DNA of 14,830 nt from Maribacter dokdonensis DSW-8 (GTDB lineage Bacteria > Bacteroidota > Bacteroidia > Flavobacteriales > Flavobacteriaceae), in contig NZ_LDPE01000011.1 of NCBI RefSeq assembly GCF_001447995.1, forward strand, positions 1 to 14,830. Reading direction: 5' to 3'. Below are positions 2-13,849 of the stretch, one piece after another. Under the pieces are notes generated by a model that was not told where the DNA came from, searched no databases, and saw nothing but the letters and a program-made list of their open reading frames with translations. A program made the translations under genes and the position numbers. Each line of letters begins with the position of its first letter. Position 1 is the stretch's first letter.

Positions 2-355
2 ACAATAGAAATAAATGTGGTGAATGATAATCCTACTGATCCAACCGACAATGTCATTGAGGTAAATCAATTGGTTACACCGAATGGGGATGGCAGAAAT
101 GAATTTTTGTTTATTAGAGGAGTTGATAAAATTCGAAATAGCACTTTAAGAATCTTTAATAGATGGGGAGTAGCGGTTTATGAAGGTGAGAATTACAACA
201 ATCAAAATAATGTTTTTGATGGAAGATCAAGAGGGCGATCAACCCTAAGTGTTGAAGAATATCTTCCATCCGGAATTTATTTCTATATTTTTGATTATAC
301 AACCCTTGATGGGGAAAGTAAAGTAGATAGTGAATATCTGTATATTAGTAGATAA
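2..355 (+). CDS. C-terminal part of a T9SS type B (CHU_C, gliding motility-associated) surface protein, 5' truncated by window
   Basis: The frame is open from base 2 to the TAA at 353-355, so the start lies upstream; the GTG codons at 17 and 20 are internal. About the last 95 residues form the type B sorting domain (gliding motility-associated C-terminal domain, TIGR04131/CHU_C). The motif TPNGDGRNE is followed by a beta-rich stretch with the signature IFNRWGVAVYEGE, then LPSGIYFYIFDY, and it ends in EYLYISR. In this family the domain directs the protein through the type IX secretion system to the cell surface. The residues before it (a Pro/Asp/Thr linker after a beta strand) suggest that the missing part holds Ig-like or adhesin repeats. 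The PorP/SprF-like gene starts 13 bp after the stop, which fits a substrate and its dedicated secretion partner in one operon. The family call is firm; the function of the full protein cannot be judged. Confidence 0.9.
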   Translation, partial: TIEINVVNDNPTDPTDNVIEVNQLVTPNGDGRNEFLFIRGVDKIRNSTLRIFNRWGVAVYEGENYNNQNNVFDGRSRGRSTLSVEEYLPSGIYFYIFDYTTLDGESKVDSEYLYISR

Positions 356-368
356 TAGATTATAAAAT

Positions 369-1322
369 ATGAATATTAAGAATAAGGTTTTAATTCTATT
401 TGGAGGTTTACTACTTGTTTGTGGAACTTCTTTCGCCCAACAAGATGCACAATATACCCAGTATATGTTTAATACCATGAGTGTAAATCCGGCTTATGCA
501 GGTAGCAGGGGACAATTAAGCATAACAGGTTTATACCGATCGCAATGGGTAGGTTTAGAAGGTGCTCCAAAAACACAAACCCTCAACATTCAATCTCCAA
601 TTAGAAACAGCAAGCTAGGTTATGGTGTTTCAATTGTAAATGATGAAATAGGTGATGGTGTTGTACAAGAAACATATTTTGATGCTGTAATTTCATATAC
701 CATAGATGTATCCGCAGAAGGAAAACTTTCATTTGGACTTAAAGCAGGTGGTAATCTTTTAAATCTTGATTTCAATAAATTAAGAAATTTTGATTCGGAG
801 CCGGTTAATTCAGATAATATAGAAAATAGATTCTCACCAAATGTTGGCGTGGGTCTATATTATCATTCTAATGAATTTTATGCAGGACTTTCAGCACCTA
901 ATCTTTTCCAAACGGAACATTTTGATAATTCTCAGCAAGATGCCAATTCTGTTAGGTTTTTATCTAAAGAAAGAATTAACTTTTATTTGATTACCGGTTA
1001 CGTTTTTGATTTGAACGGCAATTTAAAGTTTAAGCCCGCTTTACTTACTAAGGTAGTTGGTGGCGCTCCGTTACAAGTTGACGTATCTGCCAATTTTATG
1101 TTTAATGAGAAATTTACATTCGGTGCAGCATATCGTTGGGATGCCGCAGTCAGCGCTATGGCAGGTTTCCAAATATCAGACCAATTTATGATTGGGCTTG
1201 CATATGATAGAGAAACCACTGATTTAGGTGGTACACAGTTTAATGATGGATCATTTGAGGTACTCTTAAGGTATGAGTTGGTAAAATCATTTCAAAAATT
1301 GGTTTCACCACGATTTTTCTAA
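369..1322 (+). CDS. PorP/SprF-family type IX secretion system outer-membrane protein
   Basis: The product is 317 aa, the usual size for this family (about 300-330). Residues 1-23 are a signal peptide (hydrophobic core LILFGGLLLVCG, cleavage after SFA, mature N-terminus QQDAQYTQYMFN). The mature start is characteristic: Q-YTQYMFN-x4-NPAYAGSRG, followed by SQWVGLEGAPKTQTL. The rest alternates short beta strands and turns, as in a 14-stranded outer-membrane barrel. PorP/SprF proteins act with T9SS, and SprF of Flavobacterium johnsoniae is needed to export the type B substrate SprB. The gene sits between a type B substrate end (13 bp upstream) and an OmpA-family gene (15 bp downstream), so it is probably the dedicated partner for that substrate. 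The ATG at 369 is preferred because it gives the signal peptide directly. No specific symbol is assigned because there are many paralogues per genome. Confidence 0.93.
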   Translation: MNIKNKVLILFGGLLLVCGTSFAQQDAQYTQYMFNTMSVNPAYAGSRGQLSITGLYRSQWVGLEGAPKTQTLNIQSPIRNSKLGYGVSIVNDEIGDGVVQETYFDAVISYTIDVSAEGKLSFGLKAGGNLLNLDFNKLRNFDSEPVNSDNIENRFSPNVGVGLYYHSNEFYAGLSAPNLFQTEHFDNSQQDANSVRFLSKERINFYLITGYVFDLNGNLKFKPALLTKVVGGAPLQVDVSANFMFNEKFTFGAAYRWDAAVSAMAGFQISDQFMIGLAYDRETTDLGGTQFNDGSFEVLLRYELVKSFQKLVSPRFF

Positions 1323-1337
1323 AAGGCAATTTTATAT

Positions 1338-3278
1338 ATGAAACATAAAGTAAAGTTTATTATCCTAACCTTTTTGATTTGTAACGGATTGGCATTTGCC
1401 CAAGAGCGATTAATTCAAAAAGGAAATGAGAAATTTGAATCATACTCGTTTAGTCCGGCAATAGATATTTATAAAAAGGTCTTGGAAAAAGGATATGTTT
1501 CTGCAGACTTACTACGTAAATTAGGGAATTCTTATTACTATAATGCCGATTATAAAGATGCAGCAAGTATATACAAGCAGTTAGTATCGGATTACTCAAA
1601 TGAAGTAACTGCTGAAGACTATTTTAAATATGCTCAAGCATTAAAATCAACTGGCGAGTATGACACCTCCAAGTCTATAATGAACAAGTTTATAGATATA
1701 ACTAAGAAGGATGGTCGAGCAACTGCTTTTAATGATGAAGCGGATTTTATGGCTGATATAGAAAAAAATTCAGGGAGGTATAATTTGGGTCCTTTTGAAT
1801 TTAACTCCCCTTATTCAGAATTTGCTCCTTCATTTTATAAAGAAGGTTTGATTTTTTCTTCTGATCGAGATACAGGTAATTTTGCAAGATATCGTCATAC
1901 GTGGAATGCTAAAGATTTTTTAGACTTATATGAGGTAAATGCAGATAGTTCTTCCTTAAATCAAGTTAAAAAGCTTGGGGAAAATGTAAATACCCGTTAT
2001 CATGAGTCGACCTCCGCAATAACAAAAGACGGTAAAACTTTATTTTTTACGCGCAATAATATAGAGAAGCGAAAGACTGTAAAAGATGAAAAGGGAATCG
2101 TACGTTTAAAAATTTTACGTGCGCAAATGACTGATGAAGGAATATGGGGCGAAGTAGAAGAGCTACCGTTTAATAGCGATTCTTATTCTGTAGCAAACCC
2201 TGCTTTAAGTCCAGATGAAAAAACCTTATATTTTGCTTCGGATATGCCGGGTACGTTTGGAGAATCGGACTTATTTATGGTTTCAATCAATCAAGATGGC
2301 ACTTTTGGTACACCACAAAACTTAGGCTCTAATATTAACACGGAGGCAAGAGAGACATTTCCTTTTATAACAAGTGAGGAAATATTATATTTTTCATCTG
2401 ATGGTCATCCTGGTTTAGGTGGGTTGGACGTTTTTGCAACCAAAATAAAAAGACAAGATTTTTCAGGTAAAGTATTTAATTTAGGTAAACCTATAAATAG
2501 TAGCAGTGATGATTTTACTTTTATATTTAATGAAGAGTTAAGAACGGGTTATGTTGCTTCCAATCGAGATGAGGGATTAGGTAATGATGATATCTATAGT
2601 TTTACGGAGACAAAAGAATTAATTTTTGATTGTAATCAAAAAGTTACTGGAACGGTTAGGGATAAAATTTCCAATGAAGTTTTAATAGGGGCTACAGTAA
2701 AAGTTTTGGATGAAAACAATGAAGAATTACTATCGACCATAACTGATTCTAAAGGTAACTATAGTTTAGAATTAGATTGTCATAAAGGGAATTTTGTAAG
2801 AGCTTTAATGGAGGGCTATATTCCATTTGAAGAATATATAGGTGCATCGGATGGAAAACCTAAAATAATTGATTTTTATTTGGAAAGAGATCGTTTAACT
2901 GCTGGTTTTGGAGATGATTTGGCAAAACTTTTACAATTGAGTACAATATATTTTGATTTTGATAAGTATAATATCAGGAAAGATTCTGAGGTAGAAATAG
3001 AAAAGGTAATTGCGGCTATGGAAAAGTACCCAAGCCTAAAATTAAAAGTAAATTCCCATACTGATAGTAGAGGACCTGCAGCATATAATTTGTGGCTTTC
3101 TCAAAAAAGAGCAGAATCTACGGTGAATTATATGATTAAAGAGGGGATAGATTCTTCCAGACTTGTAAGTGAGGGCTTTGGTGAAACAAAATTGCTAAAT
3201 GAGTGTGAAGATGGTATTAAATGTTCATCAGCAAAACATGATGTAAATAGAAGGTCTGAGTTTATTATTTTAGAATAA
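1338..3278 (+). CDS. TPR/PD40/CarboxypepD_reg/OmpA-family outer-membrane-associated protein
   Basis: The product is 646 aa with a signal peptide (residues 1-21 or 22, ending LAFAQ). Domains in order: TPR-like helices at about 24-140 (KGNEKFESYSFSPAIDIYKK, LGNSYYYNADYKDAASIYKQ); a WD40-like PD40 propeller at about 160-425 with repeated blades such as GLIFSSDRD, TLFFTRNN, TLYFASDMPG, ILYFSSDGHPGLGG and GYVASNRDEG; a carboxypeptidase-regulatory-like beta domain at about 432-518 (VTGTVRDK, GATVKV, DSKGNYSLEL); and an OmpA C-terminal peptidoglycan-binding domain at about 532-646 with IYFDFDKYNIR, VNSHTDSRG and the closing motif NRRSEFIILE. The domain order matches the OmpA-family proteins that accompany PorP/SprF genes across Bacteroidota, and some gliding or porin (PorE-like) complexes. 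It probably anchors the secretion or surface complex to peptidoglycan. It is the last gene of its operon, ending 21 bp before a strong terminator. Confidence 0.92.
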   Translation: MKHKVKFIILTFLICNGLAFAQERLIQKGNEKFESYSFSPAIDIYKKVLEKGYVSADLLRKLGNSYYYNADYKDAASIYKQLVSDYSNEVTAEDYFKYAQALKSTGEYDTSKSIMNKFIDITKKDGRATAFNDEADFMADIEKNSGRYNLGPFEFNSPYSEFAPSFYKEGLIFSSDRDTGNFARYRHTWNAKDFLDLYEVNADSSSLNQVKKLGENVNTRYHESTSAITKDGKTLFFTRNNIEKRKTVKDEKGIVRLKILRAQMTDEGIWGEVEELPFNSDSYSVANPALSPDEKTLYFASDMPGTFGESDLFMVSINQDGTFGTPQNLGSNINTEARETFPFITSEEILYFSSDGHPGLGGLDVFATKIKRQDFSGKVFNLGKPINSSSDDFTFIFNEELRTGYVASNRDEGLGNDDIYSFTETKELIFDCNQKVTGTVRDKISNEVLIGATVKVLDENNEELLSTITDSKGNYSLELDCHKGNFVRALMEGYIPFEEYIGASDGKPKIIDFYLERDRLTAGFGDDLAKLLQLSTIYFDFDKYNIRKDSEVEIEKVIAAMEKYPSLKLKVNSHTDSRGPAAYNLWLSQKRAESTVNYMIKEGIDSSRLVSEGFGETKLLNECEDGIKCSSAKHDVNRRSEFIILE

Positions 3279-3541: not shown

Positions 3542-6500
3542 ATGAGATTAAAACAATTTTATTACTTAATTCTTCTTTTATGTTCAACTAGTTTCTTTGC
3601 TCAAGAGACATATTTGGATACATTTAGCAGTACTTCTTATTCAAATAATAACGGGACACAAAATTTTAGTGGTAATTGGGTAGAGCAAAATGATAATAAT
3701 TCGGCATTCAATGGAAGAATAAGAGTTACTGGTGGAAGGCTTCGTTTTAGGAATTTAGATAGCGGATGGATTTATCGTTTTGTTCCTCTTGCAGGTGCGT
3801 CTTCGGCCACCTTAACTTTAGATTATGATGCAACTTCGGCAGGTGGCGAGGCAATAGACGTTTTTATGTATAATGCCGATAGTAATCAATGGAACTTTAT
3901 TCAAAGGATTGATAATGGAACGGGTTCCATAACCTATAATTTAAGTGCGGCTGAAATCGATTCAAACCCTGCAATAATATTTTATCGAGGAGATACTAGT
4001 TGGGGTAATGCAGATACTATATATGTAGACAATGTTCAGTTTACCGCTACTTACGGCGCAGAGTTAGAAATAGACGATGTCACTGTAAATGAGGATGATG
4101 GTACAGCTATATTTACAGTTAGACATATAGGTAGCAGCACAAGTGCTTATAGTGTAAATTATACAACCAACGATATATCTGCCATTTCTGGTCAGGATTA
4201 TTCTGTTTCATCTGGTACGTTAAATTTTAATGGAAATATAAATGATACGGAGACTATAACTGTCCCTATTACTGATGATACTATTTTTGAAGGTGACGAA
4301 ACTTTTGGTTTGTCATTTACCTCTACAACGAATACAGATGTTGATATTACGGATACCGCTATTGGTACTATCTTGGCAAATGACGCTTTAATTATGACTG
4401 ATGGGGGCTCTGCAACTACCTGTGATGATACATTTTTAGATTCTGGCGGTATCAGTAATTACTCTGATAATGAAGATTTGGTTTATACTATTTGTCCAGA
4501 TACCGCAAATAATTATACGCAAGTTAATTTTGAACAGTTTGATGTAATTCCCGGTGATATTTTATACGTATATGATGGTAATAGTACCGGTGCAACTTTA
4601 ATTGGACAATATGATAATGATAATGTACCCACACAAATTTTTGCCACTAATACTAACGGTTGCTTAACATTTAGGTTTACATCAAATAATAATACAACAG
4701 GTAATGGTTGGCAGGCCAGTGTTAGTTGTTCGCCTCCCGGACCTAAAATTGTAGTAGAAGACGTATATGTGGATGAAGATTCTGGTAGTGCTATTTTTAC
4801 GGTAACACATGTACGTGATCGGCATGGTTATCAATCTTTCTTCTTTGGTTTTATAGAAACGCCGTTTACCGTAGAGTATATGGTAAGTGATGGAACTGCA
4901 AATAATGGTAGTGATTATATTTCTGTAAACGGAACACTTACATTTACCGGTGAGGTAGGCAACGTTCAAACTTTTTCAGTTCCCATTGTAGACGATGGCG
5001 TACCTGAATTAGTAGAGTACTTTACAGTAGGGTTTTCTGACGCAACGGCACAATATGCTTCTGTTGATTATAGTGACACCGCCAATGGTTATATTAATTC
5101 TCAAATATTGGCAAATGATCCCCTTACGTTATTTCAAGAATTTGACGGTTATTTTGATTATTCTACCACAGGTGGTTCGTTAAGAACAAATGATAATAAT
5201 ACAGATGCCTGTTCAATAACGACTTCATCTTCAAATACCCTGATTTCACCAATACCCAATACAGGCACAATAAAAAAAGCATACTTATATTGGGCGCACT
5301 CTAGTACGGTGGTAGACGGAACCGTTACTTTTGAAGGACAAACGGTTAATGCCAATTATCAATATCAAACTACGTTAACCAATAGAAATTTTTACGGTTA
5401 TGTAAGTGATGTAACCGATATTGTTGAAGGTGTGGCAGACCCATCAACCAATGTATTTGATTTTTCTGGCTTGTCAGTAGATAATTCCAACACCTATTGT
5501 TCTTCTGCTACGGTATTAGGTGGTTGGACGTTGTTCGTTTTCTATGAAGACCCAAATTTACCAGCGGTGAACATTAATTTATATCAAGGTTTTGATGGTT
5601 TAAGTAATGACGGCAATTCTTTTACTTTAGACAGTTTTTATGCAATTGCAGGTGCTGGTGCCAAGGCATCGTTTTTATCTTGGGAAGGAGATTCTACCCT
5701 TGATGGTAATAGTTCGGGTACAACCAATCCAAATGGAGAACGATTGTCAATTACGAACCAAGCAAATCAGGATTTTACGTTAGCTGGTGATGGTGGTCAA
5801 ACAGGTAATAACGCCTATAACTCTACAATGTATGATAATACAACCACACCAGATTACAATGTTAGTACAACGTATGGGGTAGATTTGGATACTTATGATA
5901 TTTCAACTTTTGTATCACCTGGAGATTCTCAAGTTACGGCAAATGTAGATGTTGGTCAAGATTTTGTGATATCTGCGGCAGTTGTATTAAAAGTGCCTTC
6001 AAACCTAATTGCGGGTACTGTTTTTGAAGATGTAAATTACGGTGGCGGTCAAGGTAGAAATATGACCAATGCCAACGGTGTAGGTATATCTAGTGCCATT
6101 GTAGAATTATATGAAAGCGATGGAACTTTTGTGAGAAGAACTACTTCTAAAGTGAGTGGTGATTATAGCTTTGGGGGTATGGCAGATGGTGATTACTATG
6201 TAAAACTTGTAAACTCCACAGTTAGGTCAACCCGAGCAAATGGTATTAATTGTACTACTTGTGTACCTGTTCAAACTTTTAGAAGTTATGGGGATGTTAA
6301 CAATAATATTGAGGTATTGGATGAAATTGGGGGAGCAGACCCAACCGCCTTCTCAGATTCTGCCTTAGGAGTTTTTGAAGATTCACAGAGTTTATCAATG
6401 GTAAGTATTGAAAGTAGTGGTGTAGCTAATATCGACTTTGGATACAATTTCAATACTATTGTAAACACAAATGAATTTGGTCAAGGTTCTCTAGAACAGT

Positions 6501-7993
6501 TTATTCTGAATAGTAATACTTTGGGTGAGGTTGGTTTGGATATTGAAGCAAATGCTATATTTGATCCCGCAGCAGAAGAGGATGTATCAATTTTTATGAT
6601 ACCACCTACCGGAGATAGTTTTGGAAGAACTGCTGATGTAAATTATAATGCTGCAGGTTACTTTGATATTTTATTGGATAATTCAAATACCTTTTCTGTA
6701 ATTACAGGAACAAATACTATCATAGATGGTAGAACCCAAACGGCTTATTCTGGCGATTCAAACGCTGGCACAGTTGGTTCTGGTGGAGCCGGTGTTGGCA
6801 TTGCAAATACGGCATTGCCTAATTATACTAGACCGGAAATACAAATTCATAGAAATGGTGGTGATGTTTTACGATTAAACGGTTCAAATGTCACGATACG
6901 AGATATATCATTATATGCGAATAATAATGCTGGGGTTAGAGTTCAAGGAGGTTCGGCAACCATTTCAAACAATTTGTTGGGAGTAAACGCGCTAGGTGCG
7001 TCTGCTGGAAACATAAATTATGGTATTGAGCAAACAGGTGGTGATTTATCAGCATTTTCAAATTATTTATCCTCAAATACCATAGCTGGTATTTTTATAG
7101 ATGGTGGTACACGTAGTACCGTTCATTTCAACCATTTAGATTCCAATGGGAGCACCGCATGTGATGATAATATTCTTATAGAAGATGGTAGTACAATTGT
7201 CATTCAAGAGAATCTTATAGAATCGGCAGCAGCATCTGGCATTGAGATAAATAATGTAAACGGAGTTACGGTCTCCAACAATAATATTCTACTATCAGGT
7301 CAAAACGGAGGTGATTGTAACGGTAGCTACGAAGGTATGGCTTTAAAACTCTCAGGTGATGATTCTGTAATTGATCAGAATAGAATTTATTCTAACGGCA
7401 GTGAGGGAGTGGTAGTTCTTTCTGGTGCATCAAACACCATTTCCCAGAACAGTATTTATGCAAATGGTACCGTAGTGCCTAGCTTGGGTATTGACCTAGG
7501 TATGGATGGCGTAACCCTTAACGATAATTCCGATTCAGATTCCGGTCCAAATAATTTAGAAAATTTCCCAATCATAAATTCCGCGTTTATTTCAGGATCT
7601 AATTTGGTGGTTACTGGTTGGGCATCTCCAGGTAGTACAATTGAGGTGTTTTTTACAGATGTTAATGAAGGTACAGCTACTTTAGGAGATAATCAGTTGG
7701 GGCTTACCCAAGATTATGGTGAAGGTCAAACCTATATTGGAACAGCCGTAGAAGGTAGTGGGGATGACCAAGATGCTACAACCTCTTCGTATGCAGACCC
7801 GGACGGTAATACTGAGAATACTAATAAATATAAATTTGTATTTCCTTTGCCATCAGGCACTGTTGTAGGAGATTTAATTACAACCACTGGTACAAGAAGT
7901 AACTCAACATCTGAGTTTTCTCCAGAAATTATTATAAGCGCTTATACGGTAATTACTAATAGAAATATTACCTATCGTATTAAAGCTAATTAG
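3542..7993 (+). CDS. Giant secreted surface protein: jelly-roll-like, Calx-beta, CUB-like, DUF3344-like, SdrD-B-like and beta-helix domains
   Basis: The product is 1483 aa. The ATG at 3542 is chosen because it opens a clean signal peptide (MRLKQFYYLILLLCSTSFFAQ is cleaved after FAQ or nearby); a TTG at 3512 would only add ten residues. Domains with rough positions: an N-terminal beta-sandwich (about 22-172); Calx-beta 1 (about 173-282, VNEDDGTAIFTV ... DDTIFEGDETF); a CUB-like domain (about 286-398, DILYVYDGNSTG, CLTFRFTSN); Calx-beta 2 (about 402-525); a DUF3344-like region (about 530-820, KKAYLYWAHSS, GGWTLFVFYEDPNLPAVN); an SdrD-B-like domain (about 821-970); a FGQGSLEQFILNSN module like those preceding beta-helices (about 975); a right-handed beta-helix with Asn-rich rungs (about 1057-1330, VTIRDISLYANN, NNILLSGQNG, GLGIDL-like turn SLGIDLGMDG); and an Ig-like domain (about 1343-1468). 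It is probably a calcium-stabilised adhesin or glycan-binding protein. It has no type A or B T9SS domain and ends instead in a 15-residue tail shared with the next gene. Domain names rest on sequence recognition, not on a search. Confidence 0.9.
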   Translation: MRLKQFYYLILLLCSTSFFAQETYLDTFSSTSYSNNNGTQNFSGNWVEQNDNNSAFNGRIRVTGGRLRFRNLDSGWIYRFVPLAGASSATLTLDYDATSAGGEAIDVFMYNADSNQWNFIQRIDNGTGSITYNLSAAEIDSNPAIIFYRGDTSWGNADTIYVDNVQFTATYGAELEIDDVTVNEDDGTAIFTVRHIGSSTSAYSVNYTTNDISAISGQDYSVSSGTLNFNGNINDTETITVPITDDTIFEGDETFGLSFTSTTNTDVDITDTAIGTILANDALIMTDGGSATTCDDTFLDSGGISNYSDNEDLVYTICPDTANNYTQVNFEQFDVIPGDILYVYDGNSTGATLIGQYDNDNVPTQIFATNTNGCLTFRFTSNNNTTGNGWQASVSCSPPGPKIVVEDVYVDEDSGSAIFTVTHVRDRHGYQSFFFGFIETPFTVEYMVSDGTANNGSDYISVNGTLTFTGEVGNVQTFSVPIVDDGVPELVEYFTVGFSDATAQYASVDYSDTANGYINSQILANDPLTLFQEFDGYFDYSTTGGSLRTNDNNTDACSITTSSSNTLISPIPNTGTIKKAYLYWAHSSTVVDGTVTFEGQTVNANYQYQTTLTNRNFYGYVSDVTDIVEGVADPSTNVFDFSGLSVDNSNTYCSSATVLGGWTLFVFYEDPNLPAVNINLYQGFDGLSNDGNSFTLDSFYAIAGAGAKASFLSWEGDSTLDGNSSGTTNPNGERLSITNQANQDFTLAGDGGQTGNNAYNSTMYDNTTTPDYNVSTTYGVDLDTYDISTFVSPGDSQVTANVDVGQDFVISAAVVLKVPSNLIAGTVFEDVNYGGGQGRNMTNANGVGISSAIVELYESDGTFVRRTTSKVSGDYSFGGMADGDYYVKLVNSTVRSTRANGINCTTCVPVQTFRSYGDVNNNIEVLDEIGGADPTAFSDSALGVFEDSQSLSMVSIESSGVANIDFGYNFNTIVNTNEFGQGSLEQFILNSNTLGEVGLDIEANAIFDPAAEEDVSIFMIPPTGDSFGRTADVNYNAAGYFDILLDNSNTFSVITGTNTIIDGRTQTAYSGDSNAGTVGSGGAGVGIANTALPNYTRPEIQIHRNGGDVLRLNGSNVTIRDISLYANNNAGVRVQGGSATISNNLLGVNALGASAGNINYGIEQTGGDLSAFSNYLSSNTIAGIFIDGGTRSTVHFNHLDSNGSTACDDNILIEDGSTIVIQENLIESAAASGIEINNVNGVTVSNNNILLSGQNGGDCNGSYEGMALKLSGDDSVIDQNRIYSNGSEGVVVLSGASNTISQNSIYANGTVVPSLGIDLGMDGVTLNDNSDSDSGPNNLENFPIINSAFISGSNLVVTGWASPGSTIEVFFTDVNEGTATLGDNQLGLTQDYGEGQTYIGTAVEGSGDDQDATTSSYADPDGNTENTNKYKFVFPLPSGTVVGDLITTTGTRSNSTSEFSPEIIISAYTVITNRNITYRIKAN
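7946..7990 (+). other. Shared C-terminal tail, copy 1 (TVITNRNITYRIKAN)
   Basis: The last 15 codons of the 1483-aa protein (residues 1469-1483) match the last 15 residues of the 1882-aa protein at 12 positions, plus one R/K exchange. The tail follows directly on different Ig-like domains in the two proteins, so it looks like an independent module. Its function is not known to me; sorting, anchoring or processing is inferred from its position. Confidence 0.8.
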
Positions 7994-8018
7994 AATTTAC
8001 GCTAGGCTGTTTATATAT

Positions 8019-8086
8019 GTGAACCCTGGCAGGGTTTGTTGCCTATTGGTTAGGCTAGGTCACTCTACATAATAGTATGAGTTCAC
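8019..8086 (+). other. Cluster of overlapping inverted repeats in the gap between the two giant genes
   Basis: Hairpins visible: AACCCT (8022-8027) / AGGGTT (8031-8036) with a 3-nt loop; GCCTA (8041-8045) / TAGGC (8051-8055) with a 5-nt loop; GTGA (8019-8022) / TCAC (8060-8063), which could enclose both; and GTGAAC (8019-8024) / GTTCAC (8081-8086) as an alternative outer stem. No T-run follows, so it is not a standard terminator for the upstream gene, although it may slow or protect transcript ends. Confidence 0.35.
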
Positions 8087-8100
8087 CGTTAGATTATAAG

Positions 8101-8117
8101 CTTTTGCAACAATTATT
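8101..8117 (+). promoter_or_regulatory. Upstream element copy 2 (CTT-N3-CAACAATTATT)
   Basis: The core at 8107-8117 begins 94 bp before the ATG at 8201, nearly the same distance as copy 1 from its gene (97 bp). One base differs from the cores of copies 1 and 3. No clear Bacteroidota -7 box is seen between this element and the start codon. Confidence 0.3.
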
Positions 8118-8159
8118 TCACGCCTTGTACATATATTCTGATTTTTATATGGTAAAATC

Positions 8160-8185
8160 ATGCTATAAACTCCCTCATTTAGCAT
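8160..8185 (+). other. Inverted repeat just before the start codon of the 1882-aa protein gene
   Basis: ATGCTA (8160-8165) pairs with TAGCAT (8180-8185) across a 14-nt loop, and the stem can be extended by A-T pairs past a bulge. It ends 15 bp before the ATG at 8201, next to the A-rich stretch AAAGAAAAG that probably serves for ribosome loading. It could affect translation, but the stem is weak. Confidence 0.25.
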
Positions 8186-8200
8186 AGTAAAGAAAAGTTA

Positions 8201-11200
8201 ATGGAATTTTATCTACAAAAAAGGATAAAATTAGGGTTTGTTGGTTGTGTAATTATTGTTTTATTTTCGGGTATTGGACTAAATGCACAAACGAGCTTTA
8301 CAGAAAGCGCGGCTGCTTTTGGCCTAGATTTAGGACAAAGAAAAGATGGTGGGCACGCTTGGTCAGATTTTGATAATGACGGTGATTTAGATGTACTCGT
8401 TCTCGAAAATAATAATAATGCCAACGTAAAAAGTTTCTTAATGCGCAACAATGGTAACAATACGTTTACCAATGTGCAATCAATTTTGGCACCCGGCATG
8501 TTAGGGGATTATGCCGAAAGACAAGCAGTTTGGGGAGATGTCAATAATGATGGCAGACCAGATTTCATGATAAATTCATCTGGTAATAGTAATGCCAGAC
8601 AGGCTATTCAAATTTTTATTCAAAATACAGACGGTACATTCGGTGACGGTATTGGGGGGTACAACCCAATAACCATAGGTAGATCGGGTTCAACAATAGT
8701 AGTACCTGCAGTAAATTCAGAAGGCGTTGGTTTTTTTGATTTTGAAGGTGATGGTGATTTAGACGTTTTTTTTGATAATCATGATATGGGTATTGAGTTG
8801 TTGCGAAATAACTTTATTGACCATACAAATCATACTGTTGCAAACCCGGCACCAAATGCCTTGTTCACTCATATTACGACCGGTAACGGTAGTGGCGTAA
8901 CTGAATTTGGTCTAAACCAATTTGCCACGGATGGGGATTATGGTACCGCAGCCGATGTAAATGATGATGGTTGGGTTGATATTTTCATGCGTAAACGAGA
9001 TGAAAATGACTTTTTCTTAAATCAAGGTGGCTCATTTTCAAATGGAGCAGATCTAGGTCAGGCGGCCAACAATAATAAAGGGGGTAATGGATTATGGGAT
9101 TTGGATAACGACGGTGATCTAGATGCGGTATGGACAGAGAATGGCCTTACGCAAATACATAGAAATGATGGGGGAGGGGTATTTACTCCTTTAGGAGCAG
9201 CTTCTTTTCCAGGGTTACCACAACCGGGTAATGTAAACAATGGTAGTTCAGGCGCTCGTATAGATGCTTTGTCAGGTGGAGATATAGATAATGATGGTGA
9301 TATAGATATTATTTTAGTAGGTAACAGTAGAAGTTATTTGTACATCAATCAATTGAATAGTCCAACTCCCGCTCCAGGTGTAATTGGTAGTGGTGCGGCA
9401 ATGAATTTTGCACTAGATGCTGAACAATTTAACTCAGGAAGAGACGGTGAAGGTACTACAATGGTTGATGTAGATGATGACGGTGATCTGGATATTTACA
9501 TTAATATAAACAATAGTGCTAACCAATTATATATTAATAATTTACCGGCAGCCAATAGAAATAATCATCTATTGATAGATGTTACCGAAGATAGAGGTGC
9601 TAATGGTAATACAGGCGGTTTTTTAGGGAGGGTAGCCATTGGTACAAATGTGTTGATCAGAGATTGTTCGGGAAATATTATTAGTGGATTAAGACAAGTA
9701 AATGGAGTCTATGGTCATGGTACCCAACAACCGGAAGAAGTACATTTTGGTTTGCCTTTAGGTGAGAATGAAACTTATATTATAGAAGTTCATTATCCAA
9801 ATTTTTATGATTCATCTGATCCTAGTGGCTATTCCAGATTAGTGGCTACTGCTATTGCGCAGCCAAGTACTATCGCAGGAACAAATCACTATACATTGAC
9901 CACTACAGATGCTGAACTAATTGAAAATCCTAATGCCCCTGAGGCAAATAATGATCAAGAACAAGTATCATATGGAAATAATATATCGGTTCAGATAGAT
10001 CTATTTGCAAACGATTCTGATGCTGACGGAGATGATTTTTCTGTTGAAAGTATTACTCAACCATCAGTGGGTTCTGTGGTTATAGATGATGCGGATAATG
10101 GCTTGGTAACATTTACGTATAATGAAGCAACACCTTTTCCCGGCGAAACTACTTTTGACTACACCATAACAGACTCTACCAATTCTCTTTGTCCCTCATT
10201 AGGAAAAAGTGATACGGCAACAGTACGGATCTTTGAGCCGTGTACGGACCCTACGGGTATAGATACTGATGGTGACGGTATTAATGATGTTTGTGATCTA
10301 GATAATGATAACGACGGTATTTTAGATGTCGATGAATGTAACATATCGGCCGTATTGGTTGATAATGGCGATTTTGGATATTGGATTTTCAATGCTCCGG
10401 GATGGACAGGAAGCGGTAATCAATGGAATATGGACACCAATAGGGCTTGGTTTCCTCAATGGAACGGTACGGGTACTGCCAGTTTTTATCAGACTATAAA
10501 TGTAGTGCCAGGTGTTGAGAATACTATCACCTTTGACTTAGGAGCTGACAACAGTTATGGTCGCGAAGTTACCTTGAATGTCTTAATAGGTGGGCAGGTT
10601 GAATTTACCGAAACTTCCAATCAAATAGTTTCAGCAAACGGAGGGAGGGCGCAAAATAATAATGAAACCTTGAACATGTCAACAAGGACATTTTCATTCA
10701 TTCCAACTTCTAATAGTATAGAACTAAGGTTTAATGGTATTTCATCTGCTACAAATCATGATAGAATGTATGTGGATAATGTAGTTCTTTCAACAGGTTG
10801 TGGTGATACCGATGGTGATGGTATTGTGGATATTTACGATTTGGACAGTGATGGAGATGGTTGTTTTGATGCTTTGGAAGGTAGCGAGAGTTTAAATTTT
10901 TCAGATTTAAATGGCGATGGAAGTATTTCAGGAGAGGTAGATAGTAATGGTGTTCCTCTGACGGCAAATGGTGGGCAAGGTTTAGGTAGTAGTAATGATT
11001 ATACGGTAACAGCAGATGAATGTGATGATGATGGTGATGGTGTGAACAATGCAAATGATAAATGTCCTTATTTTGATGATGCCATTGATAGTGATAATGA
11101 TGGCGTTCCCGACGGATGTGATAACGATGATGATAATGATGGCATATCCGATTGTGACGAGTCTTTAGAAAGTGTTTCTAGTCAGTTTGCATGGACATTA

Positions 11201-13849
11201 AACTCACCTTCCGGAAATTTAAATATGGATGCTACCTACGCTTCGGAAACAAATGATTGGGTTTTGGAGAATACAGATGCCATGATATTGAATACGTCTA
11301 TATTTAATGTAAATGGAAGTAATATAGAAATACGGCCAATAACGGCAGTTGATAAAGAAGAGGCAATAATAAATGAAGATTATATAGAGGTTTCTTTTAC
11401 TACTGGTTCTGAGGTATCCTCGTTTGAATTGAGCGGAATTACTTCTGGTTGGTATCAACCTTACAGGGGAGATTCCTATTATTCATCAGCGGTATTTACA
11501 AGAGCAGGTTCTAACGCGTGGACTACCCTTTCTACAGATGTTTTTCATACGGATAATGGTAGTAATTACGCCACATTTCAACATTTGGATATAGGGTCTG
11601 TTTATTTAGAGGCAAATACAGAATATACCTTTAGATTTTATGTCTATGGTCAAATTAATGATTCATCAGAAAACTACTCTATTATAGACGACATTCATTT
11701 TAATTTTATTGCATGTAGGTCTGGTAATTTAGATGGCGATGCATACCCAAATCATTTGGATGATGACAGTGACGGCGATGGGTGTAATGACGCAGATGAA
11801 GCCTATGCAAATACATCATCCGATGCAGATGGCAATGGTATGTATGGTTCAGGTATACCCACGGTAAATGAAAGTGGATTGGTAACGGCTGCTTCATATA
11901 GTGAACCTATTGACGGTGATAATAATGGTAATTATGATTTTTTACAGGTTGGGCAAGCACCTGTAATATCGGATCAACCAGAAGATGCCAATGCTTGTCC
12001 AGGTGGATCGGCTTCATTTAGTGTGAGCAGTTCGGCAGGAGATATGTATCTATGGCAAGAAATTATTAGCGGTACTTGGATTAATATCTCTGAAGGAGGA
12101 AAATATAGCGGTACCGATACAAATACCTTAACAATAACAAACACTTCGCTATCAGATCATAATAATAGATATAGGGTCGTGATATCTAATCCGGCTTATG
12201 TATGTGAAAATACTACATCAGAAGAAGCGGTGCTAATTGTTCAAGTGCCGATAGCAAATGCTGGTTCAGATCAGACCATATGTGATGGCGAATCCGCAAC
12301 ATTAACAGCTTCGGCTACTGGAGGAAGTGGTAGTGGTTTTACATATGAGTGGAGCACAGGCGCAACAACTCCAAGTATCACCGTTTCACCTTCAGGAAAT
12401 ACTAGTGGAAATGTAATGGTCAATTATACGGTTACCGTTACAGATAGTAGTGGATGTACAGATACAGATGAGGTCACCGTTACTGTTGAGCCTACACCTA
12501 CCATCACGGTTACGAGCTCACCAAGTTGTAATTTTAGATTGTTTCAACCAACAACCTACTCTTTTGAAGTTACCGTTAGCGGTGGTACGGTAACTGCCAC
12601 AGATGGTACGGTAACCAACGTTTCGGGTGATGTTTGGAGAATAGCAGATATTCCCGATGGTACAGATGTGGTTGTGACTTCAACACAAGGTAATTGTAGC
12701 AGAGATTTAACAGTAACGGCACCAAACTGTGTTTGTCCGGTAGTAGATCCTCCTACTAGTGACGGTAATAAAGAATATTGTCAAGGAGATACAGTACCTG
12801 AAATTTCTGCAAGTACGAGTGGAGGTACAGAAACTATAGACTGGTATGATGCTTCTTCAGGAGGTAACTTACTTCAAAATAATAGTTTAACATATCAGCC
12901 GTCTTCGGCAGGAACGTACTATGCCGAAGCGAGAAATACTTCTACAGGTTGTGTTAGTGGTACTAGAACAGCTGTAACAATTATCGAAAATTCACCTCCT
13001 TTGGCTAATGCTGGTTCAAATCAAACCATTTGTGACGGTGAGTCCGCAACATTATCAGCCACGGCAACTGGTGGTAGTGGTTCTGGCTACTCTTATGTTT
13101 GGAGCACCGGGGAAACAACACCTACAATAACTGTAACTCCGACAGGCAATCCAAATTCAAATACTACAACAACGTATACCGTAACCGTAACAGATGCTAA
13201 TGGATGTAGTGATACCGATACTGTTAACGTTACTGTTTATTCTAATCCAACCGTAACCATAAGTACTGATAATGCTTCTTGCGGAATAGATAATGGGGCA
13301 ATTACCTTTAATTTTCCAGACCACCCAAATAGAACCGGTATTAAGTTTAGTATCGATGATGGGGCAAATTATACCAGTGCGGCAGATAATAGTGGCAGTT
13401 ATACGTTTTCAAACCTTCCTGCAGGAACATACCCGCTATGGGTACGCTGGGGTAATAACGCTTGCCCGGTAAGCTTGGGAGATTATGATATTAATACAAC
13501 CCCGGAAGTTATGGTTGTAACACAACCAGTGGATCGGACTGTATTAACTGGTGAAAATGCCCAATTTACGGCTAATGTAACCAATGCGGATACATATCAA
13601 TGGCAAGTAAGTGTCGATGGGGTTAACTATGTAAACTTAGTGGATGATTCTGAGCATTCTGGTACTCAAACGTTAACTTTAAATGTGTTGAACGTTCCTA
13701 AGGAAAAAGAAGGGTATTCTTATAGACTTCTCGCCTCAAATTCCGGTACATCTTGTACGGAAACACCATCTAACGCAGCATTATTATTTGTAAATGTTAG
13801 AACTGTAATTACAAATAAACGTATAACATACCGTATAAAACCTAATTAA
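8201..13849 (+). CDS. Giant secreted surface protein: FG-GAP/VCBS repeats, UnbV/ASPIC, TSP3 linkers, jelly-roll-like and Ig/PKD repeats
   Basis: The product is 1882 aa, with a signal peptide ending GIGLNAQ (about residue 30). Seven FG-GAP/VCBS repeats (about 45-440) each carry a calcium loop such as DFDNDGDLDV, DVNNDGRPDF, DFEGDGDLDV, DVNDDGWVDI, DLDNDGDLDA, DIDNDGDIDI or DVDDDGDLDI, consistent with a beta-propeller. An UnbV/ASPIC domain follows (about 450-535). Next come a cadherin-like/Ig domain (about 581-680), thrombospondin-type-3 Asp-rich linkers (about 683-713, 868-894, 941-988, 1173-1216) separated by two jelly-roll-like domains (about 714-866 and 990-1172), an Ig domain (about 1254-1347), a pair of PKD-like modules (about 1352-1429 and 1602-1679), a SprB-like repeat (about 1682-1765) and a final Ig domain (about 1768-1866). 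It is a stalk-like, calcium-rigidified adhesin or glycan-binding protein by inference. No CHU_C or type A sorting domain is present; it ends in the tail TVITNKRITYRIKPN. It starts 207 bp after the previous gene. Confidence 0.92.
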   Translation: MEFYLQKRIKLGFVGCVIIVLFSGIGLNAQTSFTESAAAFGLDLGQRKDGGHAWSDFDNDGDLDVLVLENNNNANVKSFLMRNNGNNTFTNVQSILAPGMLGDYAERQAVWGDVNNDGRPDFMINSSGNSNARQAIQIFIQNTDGTFGDGIGGYNPITIGRSGSTIVVPAVNSEGVGFFDFEGDGDLDVFFDNHDMGIELLRNNFIDHTNHTVANPAPNALFTHITTGNGSGVTEFGLNQFATDGDYGTAADVNDDGWVDIFMRKRDENDFFLNQGGSFSNGADLGQAANNNKGGNGLWDLDNDGDLDAVWTENGLTQIHRNDGGGVFTPLGAASFPGLPQPGNVNNGSSGARIDALSGGDIDNDGDIDIILVGNSRSYLYINQLNSPTPAPGVIGSGAAMNFALDAEQFNSGRDGEGTTMVDVDDDGDLDIYININNSANQLYINNLPAANRNNHLLIDVTEDRGANGNTGGFLGRVAIGTNVLIRDCSGNIISGLRQVNGVYGHGTQQPEEVHFGLPLGENETYIIEVHYPNFYDSSDPSGYSRLVATAIAQPSTIAGTNHYTLTTTDAELIENPNAPEANNDQEQVSYGNNISVQIDLFANDSDADGDDFSVESITQPSVGSVVIDDADNGLVTFTYNEATPFPGETTFDYTITDSTNSLCPSLGKSDTATVRIFEPCTDPTGIDTDGDGINDVCDLDNDNDGILDVDECNISAVLVDNGDFGYWIFNAPGWTGSGNQWNMDTNRAWFPQWNGTGTASFYQTINVVPGVENTITFDLGADNSYGREVTLNVLIGGQVEFTETSNQIVSANGGRAQNNNETLNMSTRTFSFIPTSNSIELRFNGISSATNHDRMYVDNVVLSTGCGDTDGDGIVDIYDLDSDGDGCFDALEGSESLNFSDLNGDGSISGEVDSNGVPLTANGGQGLGSSNDYTVTADECDDDGDGVNNANDKCPYFDDAIDSDNDGVPDGCDNDDDNDGISDCDESLESVSSQFAWTLNSPSGNLNMDATYASETNDWVLENTDAMILNTSIFNVNGSNIEIRPITAVDKEEAIINEDYIEVSFTTGSEVSSFELSGITSGWYQPYRGDSYYSSAVFTRAGSNAWTTLSTDVFHTDNGSNYATFQHLDIGSVYLEANTEYTFRFYVYGQINDSSENYSIIDDIHFNFIACRSGNLDGDAYPNHLDDDSDGDGCNDADEAYANTSSDADGNGMYGSGIPTVNESGLVTAASYSEPIDGDNNGNYDFLQVGQAPVISDQPEDANACPGGSASFSVSSSAGDMYLWQEIISGTWINISEGGKYSGTDTNTLTITNTSLSDHNNRYRVVISNPAYVCENTTSEEAVLIVQVPIANAGSDQTICDGESATLTASATGGSGSGFTYEWSTGATTPSITVSPSGNTSGNVMVNYTVTVTDSSGCTDTDEVTVTVEPTPTITVTSSPSCNFRLFQPTTYSFEVTVSGGTVTATDGTVTNVSGDVWRIADIPDGTDVVVTSTQGNCSRDLTVTAPNCVCPVVDPPTSDGNKEYCQGDTVPEISASTSGGTETIDWYDASSGGNLLQNNSLTYQPSSAGTYYAEARNTSTGCVSGTRTAVTIIENSPPLANAGSNQTICDGESATLSATATGGSGSGYSYVWSTGETTPTITVTPTGNPNSNTTTTYTVTVTDANGCSDTDTVNVTVYSNPTVTISTDNASCGIDNGAITFNFPDHPNRTGIKFSIDDGANYTSAADNSGSYTFSNLPAGTYPLWVRWGNNACPVSLGDYDINTTPEVMVVTQPVDRTVLTGENAQFTANVTNADTYQWQVSVDGVNYVNLVDDSEHSGTQTLTLNVLNVPKEKEGYSYRLLASNSGTSCTETPSNAALLFVNVRTVITNKRITYRIKPN
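12254..12487 (+). repeat. Intragenic PKD-like module, copy 1
   Basis: This is a 78-residue module beginning ANAGSDQTICDGESATL and ending TDEVTVTV. It aligns without gaps to the module at 13004-13237, 750 bp downstream, with about 56 of 78 residues identical by hand count. The two copies are separated by unrelated Ig-like domains, so they look like an old internal duplication or domain shuffling, not a fresh tandem repeat. Confidence 0.8.
13004..13237 (+). repeat. Intragenic PKD-like module, copy 2
   Basis: This 78-residue module begins ANAGSNQTICDGESATL and ends TDTVNVTV. It has the same length as copy 1 and shares the YxWSTGxTTP and YTVTVTDxxGC signatures. Such modules are common in the stalks of Bacteroidota surface proteins. 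Confidence 0.8.
13802..13846 (+). other. Shared C-terminal tail, copy 2 (TVITNKRITYRIKPN)
   Basis: These are the last 15 codons of the 1882-aa protein (residues 1868-1882). Of the 12 residues identical to copy 1, six use a different codon. The similarity is therefore kept at the protein level and is not a recent DNA copy. Both genes also read AATTTA right after the stop codon, which may be chance in AT-rich DNA. Confidence 0.8.

Follow-up and report, generated by a model that had tools for sequence, protein, structure and literature searches.

A short C-terminal tail of export-type proteins in Flavobacteriaceae and its association with a conserved LV domain

Two adjacent genes of Maribacter dokdonensis DSW-8 (Flavobacteriaceae) encode large proteins of different domain content that end in nearly the same 15 residues, and here we analyse this C-terminal tail together with the genes around it. 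The window, meaning the whole stretch of DNA analysed, is the entire 14,830-base contig NZ_LDPE01000011.1 (assembly GCF_001447995.1) of a 4.43 Mb genome, and all of its genes run in one direction, on the + strand. Open reading frames (ORFs) and domain scans define tail protein 1 (3542..7993, 1483 amino acids), with a signal peptide and Calx-beta, CUB, SdrD_B and beta-helix domains, and tail protein 2 (8201..13849, 1882 amino acids), with a signal peptide and FG-GAP, Big_9 and Ig_7 domains. Translation places the first tail, TVITNRNITYRIKAN, at 7946..7990, flush with a TAG stop codon, and the second, TVITNKRITYRIKPN, at 13802..13846, flush with TAA. Upstream of both lie the C-terminal end of a type B surface protein of the type IX secretion system (T9SS), cut by the contig edge (2..355; TIGR04131, E 2e-9, 37.5 bits against a cut-off of 35), a PorP/SprF-family outer-membrane protein that ends in ...PRFF and has no Cys in its C-terminal 40 residues (369..1322; TIGR03519, E 1.8e-83), and an OmpA/PorE-like putative peptidoglycan anchor (1338..3278; NF053607, E 2.5e-126, and NF052230 PorE, E 7.5e-94, both under the curated cut-offs). 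Downstream, the N-terminal part of a repeat giant, identified from its ORF and homologues, starts QTTVTLEDQCNCEVL and runs off the contig (14264..14830).

The two tails are identical at 12 of 15 residues and use different codons at 6 of the 12 shared residues, as the earlier note on this DNA had reported when it proposed that the tail is conserved at the protein level and may be a new sorting or anchoring signal. Each tail finds the other as its sole credible match in the genome (E 0.009 and 0.012), and a profile of 73 tails matches exactly these two genes; a further match at C6:109651 (E 1.52), which that profile does not recover, was taken as chance. The proteins otherwise differ, as the note had also said: Calx-beta, CUB, SdrD_B and beta-helix domains in one stand against FG-GAP, Big_9 and Ig_7 in the other, and hhalign, applied to the last 130 residues of both protein families, aligns only the final 22 columns (97% probability). 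Homologues of protein 1 carry the tail at their end in 118 of the best 120 listed and examined among the 588 found, the other two stopping short of it; over its full length, protein 1 is 99% identical to M. dokdonensis entries.

An AlphaFold model of the end of protein 2 (mean pLDDT 83.9) contains a complete Ig domain followed by the tail, which has no structure (about 51 over the last ten residues) and forms an unstructured extension of this last Ig domain. A fold search with the model returned a list of 50 matches led by ordinary Ig domains. The tail as part of an Ig fold, a refutation that the note had allowed for, is ruled out for protein 2 by this model and by the different sequences ahead of the two tails; the corresponding model for protein 1 was poor (mean pLDDT 60.8, low confidence throughout) and was not used. 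Recent DNA duplication or a DNA-level element is ruled out by the codon diversity. The last 15 residues are polar and basic and contain no hydrophobic helix, so that the C-terminal transmembrane stretch with basic tail typical of LPXTG and PEP-CTERM signals is not found.

Across the family, the tail recurs. At a lax E of 0.5, 168 of 397 sampled Flavobacteriaceae genomes have a match to a profile of the two window tails. With the profile of 73 tails and a threshold of E 0.01, the tail is found in 72 of the 397, spread over 46 of 237 genera, which bears out the recurrence that the earlier note had proposed to look for. The window's own genome has the tail on two genes only; its breadth appears across genera. 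In a sample of the phylum, the profile of this form of the tail, denoted class 1, matched 7 of 395 genomes, all of them Flavobacteriaceae (that family's share of the 395 is not given), and a general sorting class for the whole phylum was rejected on this result. The class 1 profile and the class 2 profile introduced below were built from tails of genomes later searched, and those tails therefore match by construction.

The position of the tail is fixed. We scanned every ORF of at least 60 residues in 80 fetched regions and 13 named loci (L043-L135, among them loci that represent one genome twice, once from each of two collections) and found the motif within 12 residues of the stop codon in 140 ORFs, in 90 of 93 related loci, and internally in 0 ORFs. 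At 115 places, comprising the two-tail profile matches with E up to 0.001 whose regions were fetched, all 115 matches end 0-6 residues ahead of the stop; 107 fit the regular expression used for selection and 8 are variants such as VITNRRITVRANPD, one of which lies in a 37-residue frame. The 142 tail genes gave 139 non-redundant tail proteins after removal of identical rows, in 19 ORF clusters, some of which are fragments of others. Their consensus, T-V-I-T-N-R-R-I-T-Y-R-V-K-K-N, contains no Gly, and the distance from the Asn (N) to the stop is 10 residues in 122 of 139 and 9 in 14. An Arg stands six residues past this Asn in 139/139 tails, where the regular expression requires Arg or Lys; as the expression fixes some residues, the invariance of N and R is partly built in, and the profile check is less biased.

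At the DNA level, the core VITNRRITYRV is spelled in 52 ways, which are on average 0.76 identical, so selection works at the protein level. Aligned together, 42 carriers from 18 ORF clusters have a mean column identity of 10%, and invariant and nearly invariant columns occur only in the tail. The proteins that carry it are of export type: a signal-peptide-like start is present in 128 of 137 carriers with a visible 5′ end, versus 139 of 285 other ORFs, as judged by a crude heuristic. Carriers span 134-2397 amino acids, with a median of 1242, and include Calx-beta, beta-helix, FG-GAP, PA14, lectin, CUB, IgGFc-binding, DUF11 and Ig-type domains; many have an Ig-like domain directly ahead of the tail. 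The tail is thus a protein-level element of export-type proteins that is fixed at the C terminus.

Some carriers stand apart. Small tail proteins of about 320-480 amino acids occur away from the PorP/OmpA/giant locus (L057, L068, L087, L094, L097, L105 and L108). A second recurrent tail locus (L060, L064, L070, L100, L113, L118 and L123) has an ABC ATPase and a membrane protein beside one or two genes of one tail cluster, with a giant of 1579-2223 amino acids also adjoining in 6 of 7. In L100 this giant is type B and the ATPase has a GldA match under the cut-off; L064 is the locus in which no giant was seen. In Maribacter zhoushanensis (L045, about 12.5-14.2 kb), the second tail gene appears as two shorter ORFs of 140 and 316 amino acids, with the tail on the second, and may be disrupted or interrupted by an assembly gap.

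The tail is distinct from the known T9SS C-terminal domains (CTDs). NCBIfam and Pfam scans covered 42 of the 139 tail proteins, from 18 clusters, with 25 of 30 Pfam families listed. At E 0.01, 0 of 42 match type A (TIGR04183/PF18962) and 0 of 42 match type B (TIGR04131/PF13585); no T9SS-named model is among the 13 NCBIfam families found in these 42 proteins, which speaks to the type C (ChiA-type) CTD only if its model (NF033708) is part of that library, and no sorting-signal model matches any scanned tail protein. Neither window tail protein matches a type A or type B model, and the gene at 2..355, as a positive control, does match type B, as do the type B neighbours that were scanned elsewhere. 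Hhalign gives a probability of 0.1% between both C-terminal families and eight type A stretches of the same genome, and the type A hallmarks (a GxY motif D and a beta-sandwich or three-strand fold) are absent from the Gly-free consensus and from the structureless tail of protein 2. An origin of the tail as the end of a type A or B domain is ruled out by the profile scans and hhalign, and the note's expectation that carriers would be signal-peptide-bearing, large and free of T9SS domains holds.

Relatives of the carriers show what the tail stands in for. Two database searches from proteins with variant tails, described below, yielded 123 distinct proteins, which we sorted by C-terminal pattern and precomputed Pfam domains: 89 have the tail only (in 6 of these loose-pattern matches, the last match fell on a second N within a plain tail), 16 a T9SS domain only, 0 both and 18 neither. 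The 18 include P0221, named Thermaceae, P0189 and P0191, named partial, and P0203, P0205 and P0243, whose ends look type A-like by eye. A T9SS-domain protein, P0192, aligns over nearly the whole searched region (98% coverage, 33% identity), so related ectodomains occur with either ending. The tail takes the place of known CTDs. Another class of tail may be represented by four of the related proteins (P0193, P0194, P0213 and P0214), which end in S or T, one residue and IYH[QE], as in TSSIYHE.

The gene neighbourhood points to a partner. Of 119 tail genes in loci with PorP, OmpA-like or giant genes, 61 directly follow an OmpA-like gene and 45 follow another tail gene; 60 are themselves followed by a giant starting QTTVTLEDQCNCEVL (cluster 0) and 45 by another tail gene. 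The complete giants share a conserved C-terminal domain, which we denote LV (taken as 95 residues), closing in ...DYNxLINVVFVVK and then the stop. This domain has no match in Pfam, NCBIfam or the PDB, and was rejected as a type A relative, there being no profile match. In class 1 loci, LV ends a repeat-rich giant whose gene neighbours encode type B, PorP and PorE-like anchor proteins.

LV is present in 89 of the 397 Flavobacteriaceae genomes, namely in all 72 of 72 tail genomes and in 17 of 325 without the tail, and the class 1 tail occurs in 0 of 308 sampled Flavobacteriaceae genomes without LV. The class 1 tail is thus found only in genomes with LV. The giant's N terminus tracks the tail less completely: at E 1e-20 or better it is found in 67 of 397 genomes, all 67 with the tail, and is missing from 5 tail genomes, in one of which (G351) an LV protein of 212 residues directly adjoins the tail gene. 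LV is single-copy in 88 of 89 genomes, and tail matches number one to five per genome. For 23 of 142 tail genes, the fetched stretch contains no member of the PorP, OmpA-like or giant clusters, so a partner of theirs would have to work in trans; in G057, the tail and LV are about 11 kb apart on one contig. Given the 72/72 association, we prefer a specific tag for docking or targeting to a general class of sorting signal. The note's proposal of a new sorting or anchoring signal is borne out in part: the C-terminal element recurs on export-type proteins, but it follows a single partner.

The only LV match of the window's genome lies at the start of contig C6 (G000:C6:260-538). As the window's contig breaks in the repeat region and this sole match begins C6, the giant gene was probably split between contigs by the assembly, at its repeats. 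Shortly after the signal peptide, the window giant and homologous giants have QCNCEVL in common, with a Cys-x-Cys pair.

The giants themselves vary. The two that were scanned, L090 and L167, have no T9SS domain; L090 is collagen-like (PF01391, E 1e-145) and L167 has collagen-flanked surface repeats. A GXY run of at least 45 residues occurs in three of six complete class 1 giants (L090, L092 and L117) and not in L076, L155 or L156, and a collagen-like fibre, first read from L090, was accordingly rejected as the constant partner, a change that shifts no weight among the explanations below, none of which depends on collagen. Over the giant's whole ORF cluster, 6 of 65 members, many of them cut short, have such a run (L090, L092, L117, L080, L091 and L095), the longest being 1836 residues, in L095.

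From the 17 genomes with LV and no class 1 tail, we fetched loci for 11, of which 9 were readable, those of G103 and G222 ending at a contig edge, and also fetched the LV loci of three tail genomes (G057, G177 and G364). A variant tail lies beside LV in 9 of 9 readable LV-only loci, class 2 in six and class 3 in three. The class 2 tail sits on a gene adjoining LV, flush with the stop, in G014, G030, G094, G220, G257 and G297, examples being CMVITNPMLPSKAKQ, LLITNPHIYQRVKNN and FLITNPMIYQKVD; in these loci, the tail gene is followed by a type B gene, a PorP gene and an OmpA-like gene (by eye; one type B gene was scanned). By names in the database, class 2 occurs in Flavobacterium, Sinomicrobium, Mesonia, Salegentibacter, Sphingobacterium and Parapedobacter, and the form ITNPHIYQRVKNN bridges to ITNRRITYRVKKN. 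The class 3 tail, for example IPVNRNIRSYFQ or CIPVNRHVRTYL, is on a gene adjoining LV in G117, G196 and G301, and twice in G364. At these loci the LV protein is about 200 residues long; inspection by eye showed none of the PorP, type B and PorE-like genes within about 7 kb, which leaves LV and the tail as the minimal unit. Two-gene units of LV and a class 3 tail (PVNR[NH][IV]R or PLNRHIR) amid unrelated genes are seen in L160, L161, L166 and L169, the pair being duplicated in tandem in L169.

The patterns of the three classes, ITNRRITYRV (1), ITNPM(L/I)xx(K/R)(A/V)K (2) and PVNR(N/H)(I/V)R (3), differ strongly over the last eight residues, and hhalign between class 1 and class 2 tails gives 28% probability with E 0.0006, weak on its own. 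In a tree of 18 LV domains (17 different), the three tail classes separate with two changes, the fewest possible, with support of 94/97 for class 1, 98/97 for class 3 and 56/93 for class 2. Two members of one genus (g31), G256 and G030, differ both in LV type and in tail class. Given this difference and the split of the tree by class, LV and the tail appear to travel and change as a pair.

Taken together, these observations suggest to us, with about even confidence, that the tail is a short C-terminal docking or targeting tag committing adhesin-like proteins to one surface apparatus, and that it is probably read by LV. Exported adhesin-like proteins with unrelated ectodomains would end in the tail in place of a T9SS CTD, and the apparatus would have as its constant part a protein, usually encoded once per genome, that ends in the LV domain (...LINVVFVVK-stop). 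The tail proteins would leave the cytoplasm by Sec and pass the outer membrane by, or together with, T9SS. LV may then bind the flexible tail, probably as an added beta-strand, so that tail proteins decorate an LV structure sitting on a static anchor, which PorP, type B and PorE-like proteins may form where they are present.

The genes of the window and of the main loci fit such an anchor: type B, PorP and PorE-like genes occur together there, and the PorP lacks a Cys-x-Cys pair, all 61 complete members of the PorP cluster ending in PRFF and 0 of 61 having a Cys in the last 40 residues. This combination was not seen, by eye, in class 3 loci. In Flavobacterium johnsoniae, a type B protein whose gene lies with those of a PorP and a PorE-like protein is reported to be static (PMC12618676), and gliding SprF is reported to need a Cys-x-Cys tail (PMC12635249). 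The static-anchor proposal agrees with this work on F. johnsoniae. F. johnsoniae sprC/sprD, considered as relatives for their gene order, were set aside: a primer printed in PMC9870892 implies, as we read it, that SprD ends in GKMAIVK..., which is not the tail.

Several points weigh against reading the tail as a tag for an LV apparatus. The co-occurrence counts are phylogenetically non-independent, and most tail genes are linked to an LV giant. Over the genomes without LV, the class 1 profile alone was run, not class 2 or class 3 tails. Four of the 72 tail genomes are weak matches, with E 0.0015-0.0032 (G177, G223, G364 and G380), and the G364 match in the two-tail profile search sat in a 39-residue frame. 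G103 and G222 have a strong LV match and no tail detected, both loci stopping at a contig edge; the LV neighbour gene in G177 is without a tail; and LV-only genomes with weak LV matches (G013, G022, G053, G244, G270 and G395) were left out of the locus reading. The likeness of class 3 to class 1 is a matter of few residues (N-R-x-I/V), the class 2 group of the tree is weakly supported (56/93) and just one branch scores well on both measures. Not every LV protein is a fibre: those of class 3 have about 200 amino acids, and collagen-like runs occur in only three of six complete giants. LV might serve simply for folding or trimerisation. The PorP, type B and PorE-like proteins of classes 1 and 2 are placed equally well to be the reader.

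The main rival, which we consider possible if on the whole unlikely, is a new minimal T9SS signal that mimics the last CTD strands (motifs D and E) and has as its reader either the SprA translocon or a PorP/PorV-type shuttle of its own, the link with LV reflecting joint use only. The tail does sit at the CTD position and never together with a CTD, and its carriers have extracellular-type domains and no known CTD. However, T9SS is widespread in Flavobacteriaceae, and none of the 308 genomes without LV has a class 1 tail. With no Gly in its consensus, the tail has no GxY motif D; it is also without structure in the model and without a type A profile match. According to a review (PMC10202324), secretion of green fluorescent protein (GFP) requires the final 13 residues of a type A CTD, and the final 22 of HBP35 are enough for it; type B-PorP pairs show that signals can be specific to a locus (PMC12618676). 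Yet the short CTDs described in PMC11969387 are longer, at about 40-55 residues.

A more doubtful alternative has the tail dock not on the LV protein but on the outer-membrane anchor of the locus, be it a PorP-family, type B or OmpA/PorE-like protein. For 106 of 119 tail genes, the upstream neighbour is an OmpA-like gene or another tail gene; PorP-PorE-type B operons have been proposed to build static anchors (PMC12618676), and the PorPs here are without the Cys-x-Cys tail of gliding SprF (0/61; PMC12635249). The class 3 loci speak against it, pairing LV with tail genes where no such anchor gene was seen by eye within about 7 kb. We consider it very improbable that the tail has no present function and was inherited from an ancestral C-terminal module copied among paralogues: an Ig-like domain does precede it in many carriers and several genes per locus are related, but its near-invariance beside unalignable preceding sequence, with free synonymous change, points to current selection. 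Least probable of all is a C-terminal nascent-chain element, acting through translation arrest or similar to regulate the next gene, which the nearly invariant peptide and its fixed stop distance (10 residues from N in 122 of 139) would suit, but which sits poorly with the 23 of 142 tail genes outside PorP/OmpA/giant loci, with carriers enriched for export-type proteins, needless for an arrest peptide, and with tail classes that diverge strongly in their last eight residues.

A broader proposal, which we advance tentatively and with less than even confidence, is that Bacteroidota have an undescribed surface-assembly code. In it, foldless tails of three classes would each be read by the cognate LV domain at the end of a surface protein encoded nearby, and every tail would co-evolve with its reader. 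Neither partner having a known T9SS CTD, the two would together build multi-adhesin structures, some on collagen-like giants. Such a tag would give a sequence handle on large Bacteroidota surface-type proteins without a known sorting signal and would allow the members of a given surface apparatus to be predicted. It makes directly testable how proteins without a CTD reach the surface and stay there, the three tail/LV classes serving as natural specificity tests.

The tail strings of class 1 and of variant forms have no match in the open literature searched (subscription journals and preprints lie mostly outside it), which, with the absence of any matching sorting-signal model, accords with the earlier note's failure to recognise a named family; for collagen-like proteins linked with type IX secretion in Flavobacteriaceae, the same literature yielded one genome paper, in which the term collagen-like does not occur. 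Like the T9SS type A CTD (TIGR04183, PF18962), the tail is C-terminal on exported Bacteroidota proteins, has a basic end after a beta-prone stretch and fills the same slot in relatives. The type A CTD, however, is a beta-structured domain of tens of residues with a GxY motif D, whereas the tail, at about 15 residues, has a Gly-free consensus, is modelled without structure and gives no profile match. The type B CTD (TIGR04131, PF13585 CHU_C) and its PorP/SprF shuttle are encoded in class 1 and class 2 loci, and likewise involve a locus-specific reader and surface anchoring, but this CTD has about 90-100 residues and five motifs, and 0 of 42 tail proteins match it. The short CTDs of Prevotella intermedia are also shortened C-terminal secretion signals; in contrast to the tail, they span about 40-55 residues, keep motifs B, D and E and have modelled PorV binding (PMC11969387). 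Some LV giants (L090 and L167) resemble collagen-like adhesins of the Scl/Lcl type (PF01391, PF19079) in their collagen-like or collagen-flanked repeats, whereas L076, L155, L156 and the roughly 200-amino-acid class 3 LV proteins are not collagen-like, and LV proteins end in LV rather than in LPXTG. A further comparison is with the F. johnsoniae static operon Fjoh_3952-3951-3950, which likewise encodes a type B protein, a PorP-family shuttle and a PorE-like protein together; compared by description only, it differs in that the part of PMC12618676 available mentions no LV or tail protein for it, the two components that in the loci studied here appear to form a pair.

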